Translations under genes and position numbers: made by a program
Notes under the pieces: model-generated
Database searches by the model: none
Told to the model about the DNA's origin: nothing
The model's input: only the letters and a program-made list of their open reading frames with translations
Source of the DNA: Leptospirillum ferrooxidans C2-3
Lineage (GTDB): Bacteria; Nitrospirota; Leptospirillia; Leptospirillales; Leptospirillaceae
Assembly (NCBI RefSeq): GCF_000284315.1
Contig: NC_017094.1
Location: 1,457,486 to 1,521,485 of the forward strand
Length of the DNA: 64,000 bases
Direction: 5' to 3'
Shown here: piece by piece, positions 12,078 to 47,140 of the stretch
Layout: every line of letters begins with the position of its first letter
Position numbering within the stretch: position 1 is the first letter of the stretch

Positions 12078-13109
12078 ATGCAAAAAAGGCACCTGGGTCG
12101 CAGTGGCGTTAGCGTTTCTTCCATCGGCTTCGGCCTCATGGGATTATCCGATTTTTATGGTCCACCTTCCAAGGAAGAGGCCATGAAAAGCCTTCTCCAT
12201 GCCATCTCGAGGGGTATCACTTTTCTGGATACGGCAGATGTCTATGGAGATGGAGACAATGAGCGACTTCTGGGAGAGGCTGTGAAAAGCCATGGCCGCG
12301 AAGGGCTGACCATTGCGACCAAATGCGGGATCGTCCGGGACAAGGCGACCAATCGGCCGACAGGGGTCAATGGACGTCCGGAATATATCCTCGAAGCCTG
12401 TCAGAAAAGTCTGGACCGGCTAGGCATCCAGACGATCGACCTCTACTATCTTCATCGTGTCGACCCTTCGGTACCCATTGCGGAATCCATGGGTGCCATG
12501 GCGGAACTGGTCCAAAAGGGAATGGTCCGGCATGTGGGGCTTTCAGAGGCCAATCCTTCGGATATCAGGAAAGCCCACAAGGTCCAGCCGATCGCTGCCT
12601 TGCAGAATGAATACTCCCTTGTCACAAGAGAGATCGAGATCGATGTCCTTGGAACCTGCCGGGAACTGGGAATCGGACTGGTGGCTTACAGTCCGCTGGG
12701 AAGAGGGCTCATCACCGGATCTTTTGCTTCCGCATCGGAGATCAAGGACGGAGATGTCCGCAAATCCCATCCCCGTTTTCAGTCAGAAAATCTCCTGAAG
12801 AATAAGGAACTTGCTGAAAAAGTCCGGGAAATGGCAACCAGAAACCATATGACGCCCGCCCAGCTGGCTCTTTCATGGATTCTGGCACAGGGCCCGGATA
12901 TCGTCCCCATTCCGGGGTCTTCCCGTATTTCCCATATCGATGAGTTCGTCGACGGCTTGGCGATTCCCGTTCCCTTTCAGGAACTGGTCAGGCTGACCGA
13001 CCTTTTTCCGCTGGGAATCGCCAAGGGGCTCAGATATCCTGAGGAAGCCCTAAAGAGAGTCTACATGCCGCCTGCCCCGGAGCCTAAGTCCACAGGGGCG
13101 GCACACTAG
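12078..13109 (+). CDS. Aldo/keto reductase
   Basis: A 343-residue NADPH-dependent aldo/keto reductase with a complete catalytic tetrad by position: Asp51 and Tyr56 in DTADVYG, Lys82 in ATKCG, and His126 in YYLHRVD. The C-terminal cofactor-binding segment VPIPGSSRISHIDE is present. The overall pattern (HLGRSGVSVSSIGFGLMGLS) resembles the YakC/AKR13 group acting on aldehydes; the substrate is unknown. AAGGAG precedes the ATG. It is divergent from the toroid-protein gene, with 133 bp between starts, and appears monocistronic. Confidence 0.93.
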   Translation: MQKRHLGRSGVSVSSIGFGLMGLSDFYGPPSKEEAMKSLLHAISRGITFLDTADVYGDGDNERLLGEAVKSHGREGLTIATKCGIVRDKATNRPTGVNGRPEYILEACQKSLDRLGIQTIDLYYLHRVDPSVPIAESMGAMAELVQKGMVRHVGLSEANPSDIRKAHKVQPIAALQNEYSLVTREIEIDVLGTCRELGIGLVAYSPLGRGLITGSFASASEIKDGDVRKSHPRFQSENLLKNKELAEKVREMATRNHMTPAQLALSWILAQGPDIVPIPGSSRISHIDEFVDGLAIPVPFQELVRLTDLFPLGIAKGLRYPEEALKRVYMPPAPEPKSTGAAH

Positions 13110-13467
13110 GAAGAAATTCCCGGAACCGATGGTAACTCTTCAGAACGATAGGTAGCGAGCAGGTTGCTCTGGCAGGCTGCCTATCACAAGATATCCAACC
13201 GGTGAGTCCGCCAAGAAGCCGGAGCGGGAGGTATCATTTCGACCTTTATCTTCAAATCAGCTCCCTTCGGTACCTCCGTTCTTTCTTCTCTCCCCATAGC
13301 GAGCTTTGACCAAGAAAATGAACAGCCGTTTGCTTTATGGAGATTTTTCTGAACCATTGCGTGATGGATATCACTGGAGAATACCTTGAATCGCCTGAAA
13401 CAAGAGGAATAAAATGAGGGTATTGGCATAAGTCGTTCAACAGATCCACAGATATAAGGAGGTAGCC
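13110..13467. other. 358-bp intergenic region with a possible structured element
   Basis: No convincing gene is visible here. Near its left end, GATAGGTAGC (13147-13156) pairs with GCTGCCTATC (13176-13185) over ten positions with one G-U. The internal hairpin is GAGCA (13157-13161)/TGCTC (13165-13169). The right end carries the ribosome-binding site of the next gene. I match it to no known riboswitch. Confidence 0.4.
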
Positions 13468-13890
13468 ATGACTTGCCAACCCAAAATACGGCCGGCCGTC
13501 AATCTGGCGAACGGTTTTCTTTTTGTTCTTTCTCTTGCGAGCCCCGTTATGGCTCATCCGGGCGGAATCACACCACCCGTTCATCCTCCGGTGCACCCCG
13601 GAATTCATGTTCATCCGGCAGGTGGGGCCAACATGGGGATGGCCCACATGAGTCCGACTCCTGCAAACTTTGGTCAAACGGTCTCAGGAGTCGCTTCTTC
13701 CCAAGGGCAGACCATTTCCCAGGATGCCAAGTCAGGAATGACCGGACAGGCTCTTTCGGCTATCGCCAATCAGCATGGACAGGTTGTCTCCGGCGTAGCA
13801 ACAGGTTTGACACCTGTTCCTCCTCCGCCAGGCGGATCACCACCACCACCTCCTCCAAGCGGATCACCGCCTCCTCCTCCCTCTCCCTAG
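13468..13890 (+). CDS. Small exported His/Pro-rich protein
   Basis: I do not recognise this 140-residue protein. It has a signal peptide (hydrophobic FLFVLSLASPVMA, cleavage after VMA). The mature part begins with repeated His-Pro units (about residues 29-55, including PPVHPPVHPGIHVHP). A middle region follows with two similar GQTVSGVAS / GQVVSGVAT modules. The tail is proline-rich, (PPPPP)GSPPPPPP-like, near residues 115-140. The His-Pro stretch could bind metal; the polyproline tail may span the wall or be unstructured. A near-perfect AAGGAGGT site precedes the ATG. It is convergent with the next gene. Confidence 0.75.
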   Translation: MTCQPKIRPAVNLANGFLFVLSLASPVMAHPGGITPPVHPPVHPGIHVHPAGGANMGMAHMSPTPANFGQTVSGVASSQGQTISQDAKSGMTGQALSAIANQHGQVVSGVATGLTPVPPPPGGSPPPPPPSGSPPPPPSP

Positions 13891-13916
13891 ATCGGGAGTT
13901 TTGAAGGTCTATAATC

Positions 13917-13956
13917 TGGGCACTCTATCCATTGTCCTCTTGGGAATGAGTGCCCA
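13917..13956. terminator. Candidate bidirectional hairpin between convergent genes
   Basis: TGGGCACTC (13917-13925) and GAGTGCCCA (13948-13956) form a perfect 9-bp inverted repeat around a 22-nt loop, midway between two convergent genes. There is no long T tract, so intrinsic termination would be weak. Confidence 0.4.
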
Positions 13957-13980
13957 CTTCATTAATGGGTCATCGTCTTC

Positions 13981-14775
13981 TCAGTAGGAATAATAAAAAG
14001 ATACCCCCTCGTAGCCTCCCACACCCGGCCAGACAGAAGAGTTGAGCACTCCGGCCTCAAGAGAGAAAGTAGTATGCAGGGAAGGGAATTCTGCTGAGAA
14101 GACTCCTCCTCCCTGCACAACTTCGTAACTGCTATTCCCCTGGCCGATGATCTCGGGTCCGGCATAGAAAAGCGCCTTCCTGCGAAAAAGCTCTCCGGCA
14201 TCCATCATGTAGCGCCCTTCACCCAATAAATAGTTAATGCTTCCGATATAACTTCCAAAAAGATCAAGAGCGCCAGGACCCATCCGATCAAAAAGAAATT
14301 CGGTCTGGACATAGACTCCGGAGACTGTGCTCACCGGAGAAAATGTCTGGTCAACATTAAAATAGGCCCCGCCTATATCCCCCTCCCAGAACCCCCAAGA
14401 GGTCGGGATACGAAGCCCAACAGCTCCCACGCCTCCTGTATAGGACTCGCGAGTCAAACCATCCACCGATTGCTCAGGAGAGACTGCAGGCTGGTTGAAA
14501 TTGATGACATTGCCCGCAGCAAATACATGTAGAAAGGCTGGCTCAGGTCCATCGGCAAGACTCTTCAGTCCCTCCAGGGGAAAGAGTCCCCCGACCATGG
14601 CATCATAGAATGCCGCTTGCTGGGAAAAGATCATTTCTCCACCGGACAGCTCCAATATTGGAGAAGAATCGGCCCTACAGAAAGAGGGAAAAACAACAAA
14701 GGAAAATCCCAGAAATAAAAACAGAAAAGAGAGCTTTCGCTTTCCAGCGTTTGTATGGAAAAAAGAGGCTGTCAA
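13981..14775 (-). CDS. Exported outer-membrane-like protein, possibly BcsS-related
   Basis: The predicted product (about 265 residues) has a clear signal peptide (KRK then FLFLFLGFSFVVF, cleavage after CRA). The remainder is rich in Gly and aromatic residues with alternating patterns suggesting a beta-barrel (FWEGDIGGAYFNVD, GPGALDLFGSYIGSI). Segments such as YAGPEIIGQGNSSYE and the terminal GYEGVSFYYSY remind me of BcsS, a protein linked to cellulose secretion, but no cellulose genes are in view. I prefer the TTG at 14775, which has AGGAG eight bases upstream. The frame continues to 14826 into a 14-bp tandem repeat, where no start is well supported. Confidence 0.6.
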   Translation of the reverse strand: MTASFFHTNAGKRKLSFLFLFLGFSFVVFPSFCRADSSPILELSGGEMIFSQQAAFYDAMVGGLFPLEGLKSLADGPEPAFLHVFAAGNVINFNQPAVSPEQSVDGLTRESYTGGVGAVGLRIPTSWGFWEGDIGGAYFNVDQTFSPVSTVSGVYVQTEFLFDRMGPGALDLFGSYIGSINYLLGEGRYMMDAGELFRRKALFYAGPEIIGQGNSSYEVVQGGGVFSAEFPSLHTTFSLEAGVLNSSVWPGVGGYEGVSFYYSY

Positions 14776-15124
14776 CCTGACTTCTCCTAATTTCAATCCA
14801 CTCAAGATCCACTGTTCAAGATCCACTGTTCAAGATCCACTGTTCAAGATCCACTGTTCAAGATCCACTGTTCAAGATCCACTGTTCAAGATCCACTGTC
14901 CTGAAGATTGGCATTTTCAAAATCTTCTCTTCTCAAGAGGGCAGCAGCACCCTATAGAACATCATGACTGAGAGCAGAATCTCGAATGATCATGCATGGA
15001 AATCAAGGCCCTTTTCCCGGATGACCCGGCAATGCCCATATATTTTCCCGGGTATTTTCCAAAACGCATTCTTTTTCTTTTCGTTTTTTTGCATGCCCTA
15101 AGGGAAGTCCATACGGTCGAGCCA
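14776..15124. other. Intergenic region between cobS and the exported protein gene
   Basis: This 349-bp stretch contains the 14-bp tandem array and about 220 bp without a supported gene. Open frames in it have no family-like sequence. No strong terminator for cobS is visible. Confidence 0.55.
14803..14900. repeat. Seven tandem copies of a 14-bp unit
   Basis: The unit CAAGATCCACTGTT is repeated seven times head to tail. Six copies are identical and the seventh ends in C. On the minus strand the unit is AACAGTGGATCTTG, and the array lies 27 bp upstream of the likely start of the exported protein gene. Fourteen is not a multiple of three, so gain or loss of a unit would shift any frame through it or change promoter or leader spacing. 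Confidence 0.98.
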
Positions 15125-15871
15125 TCACCCTCTGATCGAAAAAAGCACCAGCGCAAAAAGGGCAACGCCCTCAAGACCCTCAATCGACCAACCCATAAAA
15201 TCTCCCGAAAGGCTATCACTTCGTTTCAGGACCCAAAGGGCGATCATCACCCATACCACCCATCCTGCTGCTACAGAAAGAGCCCCCCCGATACCCAAAA
15301 GAACTCCGCAGGAAAGAAACGTTATCACTAGTCCCGAATAAAAGGATATTCCGGAAAAGGATGTCATGGCTATCGTTCCCAATCCGGGCGAGTCAGGGAT
15401 TCCGGGATTTAAAAACCGAAGTGTCTTCATAGACAATGGAAGAATGCCCCTTGCAAAAATCGGAACGGCCATGATCCAGAGAGAACGATCGTTCAGTGCA
15501 TCAAGACAGGCTATTTTAAAAACAGGAAGAAAAACCAGGGCCAGAACACCGTACACACCAACATGAGGATCTTTCCGGATCCGGAGCTTGTCTTCGAGAG
15601 TGCCGGAGTACAGGGCGGATTCCCATGTATCGGCCCAGCCATCAAAATGAAGCCCTCCGGTCAGGATCGCCCAAAGAATGGCCAAGAGAACCGACCGGAT
15701 CAATGAAGGGAAGGAGGAGGTTACAACCCATAGGCCCCAGAGGGCACTTCCCAGAAAAAAACCGACAATCGGAAACTGCTCGGGACAGATCTTGATGGAA
15801 AGACTGGAAGTCCCCATCGGTATACGGGTTAAAAACAGAACCGTTGACCGGAACCGGTCAAAGAATTCCAT
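15125..15871 (-). CDS. cobS: Adenosylcobinamide-GDP ribazoletransferase CobS
   Basis: CobS is the membrane enzyme joining adenosylcobinamide-GDP to alpha-ribazole (or its phosphate), the last step of cobalamin assembly. The 248-residue protein is strongly hydrophobic with several membrane segments. It has the family motif GGLHFDGWADTWE (about residues 73-85), the acidic metal-binding site, followed by RKDPHVGVYG. The N-terminal FLTRIP also fits. Its ATG shares one base with the cobT stop (TGATG). Confidence 0.95.
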   Translation of the reverse strand: MEFFDRFRSTVLFLTRIPMGTSSLSIKICPEQFPIVGFFLGSALWGLWVVTSSFPSLIRSVLLAILWAILTGGLHFDGWADTWESALYSGTLEDKLRIRKDPHVGVYGVLALVFLPVFKIACLDALNDRSLWIMAVPIFARGILPLSMKTLRFLNPGIPDSPGLGTIAMTSFSGISFYSGLVITFLSCGVLLGIGGALSVAAGWVVWVMIALWVLKRSDSLSGDFMGWSIEGLEGVALFALVLFSIRG

Positions 15872-46326: not shown

Positions 46327-46837
46327 AAGCCCCTCCCTTCAATTATCTGATGAAAGTATTCGGTCTGATCCAAGCAAAACACGACACGCCCCTGTGCAAA
46401 AAACAGACAGGTCGGCTGACTGCGGCATAAAACCGGCCAAAGCATCACTGATTCCAGAAATACTAGCCGAATAGTGCCAAGAAGACAAGGACAAAAACAG
46501 ATCTCCCCATCCCCACCATAGGAAAAAAGACAAGTGAGACCTTGTTTTTTCCTGAAAAAGATCAAAGAGGCTCATGGACCTGAAAATCGTGCGATGGACA
46601 GGAGATGAAACGGTCATTCCGGACTGCCATTATGACAAGAATCATAATGGCAGTCCGCTCCGCATGGGAGAATGGAAACAAGATTCAGCAACCTGTTTGA
46701 ACATGGACCCGGAACCCCGAAAACAATGCTTGTTTTCCATCGTCTTTTCATCCATAATAAACCGGTCATGGGATGGTGGATTGAATCATTCCGAATCATG
46801 GGCGATGGGGTTCGCCTGAACGGCAGCGGTGTTTGAT
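46327..46837. other. 511-bp intergenic region between divergent mdh and the second efflux operon
   Basis: The region holds upstream sequences of mdh (minus) and of the plus-strand efflux operon. A perfect palindrome with 16-bp arms lies at 46620-46657. A short plus-strand frame at 46574-46819 crosses the palindrome but has no family features. Confidence 0.5.
46620..46657. repeat. Perfect inverted repeat, 16-bp arms, 6-nt loop
   Basis: CGGACTGCCATTATGA (46620-46635) and its exact complement TCATAATGGCAGTCCG (46642-46657) flank CAAGAA. No T run follows on either side, which argues against an intrinsic terminator. It may be an operator for the efflux operon downstream or an mRNA structure. Confidence 0.9.
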
Positions 46838-47140
46838 ATGACACCGGATGATGATGACCCCTACTTTAAAAAAGTAGGGGGAGCTGTGCTATTCGATGAT
46901 GGTTTTTTCAAGATTCTTCTTCTGTCTTCCTTCTTTCTGGTCTGGTTCCTCGAATCATTGATCAGGGCACCCGAAAAGTCTTCCCATAAACAGAAAATGG
47001 CCTTTCTCGCATTCATCAGGACACAGCCACTTCGTTGTCTGGCCGCATTCTTTTTACTTGTCTTTCTCGCCTTTGAATCCTCCTTTGACTGGCCAGAGTT
47101 CTCTTTTACCAATCTCCCTTATCCATTGGTTTCCAGATGA
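46838..47140 (+). CDS. Small two-helix membrane protein leading the second efflux operon
   Basis: I do not recognise this product of about 100 residues. It has an acidic start (TPDDDDP) and two hydrophobic segments (FFKILLLSSFFLVWFLESLI and PLRCLAAFFLLVFLAFESSF) separated by a basic stretch. Its stop overlaps the emrB ATG as ATGA, which supports real translation. The ribosome-binding site is weak; GTG at 46829 is an alternative start. A perfect 10-bp inverted repeat lies inside its first codons. Confidence 0.5.
   Translation: MTPDDDDPYFKKVGGAVLFDDGFFKILLLSSFFLVWFLESLIRAPEKSSHKQKMAFLAFIRTQPLRCLAAFFLLVFLAFESSFDWPEFSFTNLPYPLVSR
46858..46880. repeat. Perfect 10-bp inverted repeat near the start of the second efflux operon
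   Basis: CCCCTACTTT (46858-46867) and AAAGTAGGGG (46871-46880) are separated by AAA. It could be an operator or an mRNA hairpin that controls entry to the operon. Confidence 0.75.

Follow-up and report, generated by a model that had tools for sequence, protein, structure and literature searches.

An intergenic stretch of the Leptospirillum ferrooxidans C2-3 genome, between cobS and the gene for a barrel-like exported protein, carries a perfect tandem array of seven copies of a 14-bp unit; on the gene strand the array is followed by a degenerate, shortened copy-like stretch, a likely ribosome-binding site and a TTG start codon (Table 1). We analysed this locus within a window of 64,000 nt, the whole stretch of DNA under study, with a G+C content of 51%. 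The host genome is a single contig of 2,559,538 bp, 99.97% complete, and a published table lists the strain at 2.5 Mb with 50.0% G+C (PMC7231039).

Table 1. Features at the array locus (positions in the window).
Feature	Position	Strand	Remarks
Aldo/keto reductase gene	12078..13109	+	left border of insert
Gene for Pro-rich, probably exported protein	13468..13890	+	convergent with barrel gene; without Pfam match
Gene for barrel-like exported protein	13981..14775	-	TTG start, likely; 264 aa (P0001)
Likely ribosome-binding site	14784..14788	-	AGGAG
Degenerate, shortened copy-like stretch	14791..14801	-	GTGGATTGAAA; between array and ribosome site; by eye
Tandem array, 7 perfect copies	14802..14899	-	gene-strand unit ACAGTGGATCTTGA
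Remaining intergenic region upstream of array, up to cobS stop	14900..15124	-	
cobS	15125..15871	-	right border of insert

Tandem Repeats Finder describes the array as period 14, 7.0 copies and 100% match with a score of 196, while the top-scoring array per shuffle, over 200 dinucleotide-preserving shuffles of the window, reached a median of 43 and a maximum of 73, confirming that the seven-copy array is real and far above chance. The seven 14-bp copies proposed in an earlier note on this DNA are thus borne out, with coordinates one base off. With head-to-tail copies of a unit longer than 10 bp (14 bp x 7.0), the array is an intergenic minisatellite. Its other flank, ATCTTCAGGACAGTGG, is by eye likewise unit-like, with two extra bases. 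Across the genome the exact unit occurs at seven sites, all within the array, and the three one-mismatch sites are scattered, two of them inside open frames longer than 150 codons, the third outside; in this genome the unit occurs in tandem only at this locus. Furthermore, among the 25 entries of score at least 50 that Tandem Repeats Finder listed over 864,000 bases (34%) of the genome, the array is the only perfect one with at least four copies and a unit that is longer than 4 bp and not a multiple of three. Another, large array in the genome repeats a 126-bp unit 8.7 times (L101:5603-6695, G000:C1:709603). A plasmid or virus origin of the 14-bp array was considered and rejected, as the unit found no match in plasmids or viral contigs.

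Translation of the barrel gene likely starts at TTG 14775, with AGGAG at 14788-14784 lying 8 bases ahead of it, and the resulting 264-residue protein has an N-terminus that is signal-like by eye. Four of six closer homologues (L042, L045, L046 and L018) have a start codon, accompanied by a ribosome-site-like stretch, at most about five codons from the TTG position, again judged by eye, and the other two (L043 and L019) are ambiguous. Because the gene likely starts at TTG 14775 after AGGAG, the array is untranslated, and its position upstream of the ribosome site is well supported; array and start codon are 26 bp apart, and the ribosome site falls within those 26 bp. The earlier note had correctly placed the array directly ahead of an exported protein gene, but position 14826, a GTG from which it considered read-through, gives way as a start to the likelier TTG 14775. 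That GTG lies inside the array, within the last two copies, and translation from it, with the last copies encoding the N-terminus of the protein, would find support in a frame open from 14826. We nonetheless hold such a start to be very improbable: no AGGAG-like ribosome site was seen in the sequence ahead of the GTG, whereas the TTG has one, the four homologues named above begin near the TTG, and the frame from the GTG would still be unaltered by copy number.

The unit ends in TGA, and with a length of 14 bp this ending recurs as a stop in any one frame once per three copies (42 nt); indeed, two or more TGA codons interrupt each of the three gene-strand frames within the array. The frame of GTG 14826 is itself fixed, because identical copies that are gained or lost count as lying upstream of it. 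Since every gene-strand frame contains stops and both starts are unaffected by copy number, frame switching by copy number at the array is excluded, as judged from the sequence. The change of frame on read-through from 14826 that had been suggested founders on these TGA codons, present in all gene-strand frames, and on the location of the GTG itself inside the last copies. An on/off frame-shift switch acting by read-through of the array could appeal to a unit length that is no multiple of three, but it is refuted unless the stops are suppressed, and we consider it barely conceivable. In translational phase variation the repeat lies inside a reading frame; here the array precedes the likely ribosome site. 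On the opposite strand the unit is open in all three frames, and among the opposite-strand frames of at least 80 aa listed, none runs across the array.

The array most likely belongs to the leader or the promoter, because only 26 bp, including the ribosome site, separate it from the start codon; transcription starting downstream of it would be unlikely, unless the message is nearly leaderless. A consensus scan found no sigma-70-like site around the array, and a weight-matrix promoter scan peaked at 7.13, below the median of 8.35 for 300 base shuffles. On neither side of the array does a promoter-like site exceed shuffled sequence. In promoter-type phase variation, as at hmw, nadA and hif, repeats sit between or beside promoter elements and copy number alters expression; the array may yet act through its length on the spacing to an upstream element. 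A rheostat based on leader folding was set aside on the strength of modelled structures. Across 0 to 12 copies, the ribosome site had a predicted exposure of 0.20-0.28 when 61 nt of leader were folded and of 0.28-0.32 when the upstream stretch was left out, and the start one of 0.45-0.48; exposure of both thus appears independent of copy number, and the predicted fold is unremarkable, the 201-nt stretch folding no more stably than shuffles (z +1.07). No known RNA element lies over the array at Rfam gathering scores; the Rfam matches in the window are one tRNA and one fluoride riboswitch only, the latter above the Rfam cut-off at window 46792-46870.

Two unit copies at no more than 3 mismatches in 28 bases were found in none of the 20 relatives searched. 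We additionally scanned for arrays at 34 homologue loci, six of which are places fetched twice, with flanks of 1.5 kb in most. No upstream array of score at least 50 was detected at these loci except at L030, which belongs to a marginal match in G014; the other arrays at homologue loci lie on the 3’ side of the homologue. Eight closer homologues (at least 55% identity) come from G004, G005, G010-G013, G016 and G020, that of G013 ending at a contig edge, with its upstream DNA absent.

The barrel gene and the convergent gene for the Pro-rich protein form a cassette flanked on one side by the aldo/keto reductase gene and on the other by cobS. The Pro-rich protein was found in 5 of the 20 relatives searched for it, a set that leaves G013-G020, with their barrel homologues, outside; in all five it faces the barrel homologue, with 73-192 bp between the matches, and the G005 copy contains a single internal TGA. 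Imperfect repeats occur in the Pro-rich end of this protein and in the same region of several relatives. The aligned flanks of the cassette are 133 bp apart in G001, a genome of the same genus, compared with 2,029 bp here, and the flank spacing in G003 and G006 is also about 2 kb shorter than here. In G002, the other same-genus genome, a 1,931-bp gap is occupied by a HipA-like gene together with a frame whose helix-turn-helix match is weak and below the cut-off, and in G008 the two flank matches are on different contigs. Because the gaps between the flanks differ across relatives, the insert looks lineage-specific, and the site (window 13125-15124) has taken different inserts.

Homologues of the barrel gene are present in 18 of 60 relatives’ genomes (19 of 61 when its own is included), all of one family, with the homologue in G014 counted among the 18 at a marginal E of 4.4e-4. 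The barrel protein does not reach the cut-off of Pfam PF17036 (BcsS), at 17.9 bits against 24, and BcsS matches at E 0.01 or better were obtained for 12 of 26 homologues (best 1.7e-4). In G006 the homologous domain makes up the C-terminal end of a TPR protein of 984 aa encoded immediately after bcsB, in the neighbourhood of a cellulose-synthase/PilZ frame and a family-8 glycosidase; in G012 it forms the end of a 973-aa frame neighbouring bcsB. The barrel protein therefore shares homology with the C-terminal domain of a BcsC-like TPR protein encoded beside bcsB, BcsC itself being laid out as a TPR protein with such a C-terminal domain. The window’s own genome gave no BcsB match, and a second copy of the barrel domain in it adjoins a sugar-transferase gene. 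We read the protein, from its homologies, as a putative stand-alone, polysaccharide-related outer-membrane barrel, the barrel assignment itself being likely in view of homology and strand pattern. A structure model built on an alignment of six sequences was of poor quality (mean pLDDT 50), with repeated strands visible; no solved structure matched the protein by single sequence or by 26-sequence profile, and no NCBIfam match was found.

We favour, with reasonable though far from complete confidence, a reading of the array as a young, slippage-prone minisatellite in an untranslated region that is neutral or weakly dose-tuning. The copies would have arisen from a short unit by replication slippage or recombination, and copy number may still be changing; judged by its purity the array is probably unstable in copy number, and longer, purer tandem arrays are generally less stable according to one review (PMC3899988). 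Because the copies are identical and only 26 bp remain to the start codon, a change in copy number would alter nothing beyond leader length or the spacing to upstream elements, and no on/off switch would be expected, at most a graded change in expression. Counter to a neutral reading, the array is the only one of its kind in the 864,000 bases listed, and its place right before a surface-protein gene could reflect selection; perfect purity, too, may be the mark of a functional contingency locus. An alternative is a phase-variable element that tunes dose, in which copy number would set the distance from an upstream promoter or activator site to the gene, or the length of the leader, and so grade the transcript as in hmw1A; as a corollary, three copies make 42 bp, or about four helical turns, and the same helix face would recur every three copies. 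Position ahead of a surface-protein gene and a non-triplet unit that spans no whole number of helical turns both speak for such tuning, as do precedents in hmw1A (PMC8262952) and in promoter repeats of M. tuberculosis (PMC12817950). We judge it unlikely all the same, although a serious candidate, since neither array flank has a promoter-like site above shuffles, predicted leader folding at the ribosome site is insensitive to copy number, and the homologues examined have no array ahead of them. Perhaps the array instead provides direct binding sites for a regulator, as identical, evenly spaced 14-mers ahead of one gene might suggest; this we find distinctly improbable, for the 14-bp spacing would put neighbouring sites on different helix faces, the unit is nowhere else in tandem in the genome, and its single near-matches fall mostly (two of three) within open frames.

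The minisatellite reading can be set beside known systems. In hmw1A/hmw2A of Haemophilus influenzae, heptanucleotide repeats lie between promoters P2 and P1; as there, the array here is untranslated, tandem, non-triplet and directly ahead of a surface-protein gene, but the unit measures 7 bp there and 14 bp here, and the hmw constructs carried 13 to 24 copies as opposed to 7 (PMC8262952). Copy number varies in hmw1A/hmw2A, with more copies giving less transcript and protein (PMC8262952), whereas here we have the sequence of one genome. The promoter repeats of M. tuberculosis (dop, lpdA, cysG) are of the minisatellite class and upstream of a gene, as here, although with units of 57 bp (dop) and 54-56 bp (cysG) rather than 14 bp, and with copy-number variants known within populations (PMC12817950), compared with one genome here. 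Like intergenic VNTR or minisatellite loci, the array has a unit longer than 10 bp in pure tandem copies and is noncoding (PMC3899988); VNTR or contingency loci are those whose copy number differs among isolates or within one culture.

Elsewhere in the genome, a (GCAA)8 tract at G000:C1:576852 (L100:836-906, G000:C1:576836-576906) makes a much stronger candidate for translational phase variation than does the 14-bp array, its copy number being that of one genome. It is the other pure non-triplet array with at least four copies in the 864,000 bases listed, and the only place in the genome with four tandem GCAA. An AGGAGG ribosome site and a TTG start directly precede the tract, and this TTG is not in frame with the protoglobin-PAS-GGDEF-EAL gene downstream. 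In G012, a homologue of the GGDEF-EAL protein, sharing 52% identity over residues 24-858, opens with the same TTG and peptide (LKRFLRKQA vs LERFLRKQA), has two GCAA only, and is in frame from the TTG and open for 869 codons; the matches in G010 and G011 begin at about residue 190-210 and are uninformative on the start. From these comparisons, (GCAA)8 likely makes the protoglobin-GGDEF-EAL c-di-GMP enzyme phase-variable.

Repeat-based switching has mostly been studied in host-associated bacteria, and titles and abstract openings of the literature on L. ferrooxidans tandem repeats and Leptospirillum phase variation yielded no such loci. It is doubtful that repeat-length switching varies the attachment machinery of this acidophilic iron oxidiser, the array grading a cellulose-type outer-membrane barrel and (GCAA)8 switching the protoglobin c-di-GMP enzyme on and off; were it so, a free-living mineral-leaching bacterium would possess contingency loci. 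Should the array vary and grade expression, it would offer a simple strain marker and a possible generator of diversity in a bioleaching bacterium. As known here, it is a well-defined, easily typed repeat for which the frame-switch reading can be dropped. A start sequence similar to that of the GGDEF-EAL gene, with ATG, RDLRKRA and a short GCAA-like stretch, was seen at L137:1130-1330 (G001:C41), where the ATG frame ends after 26 codons.
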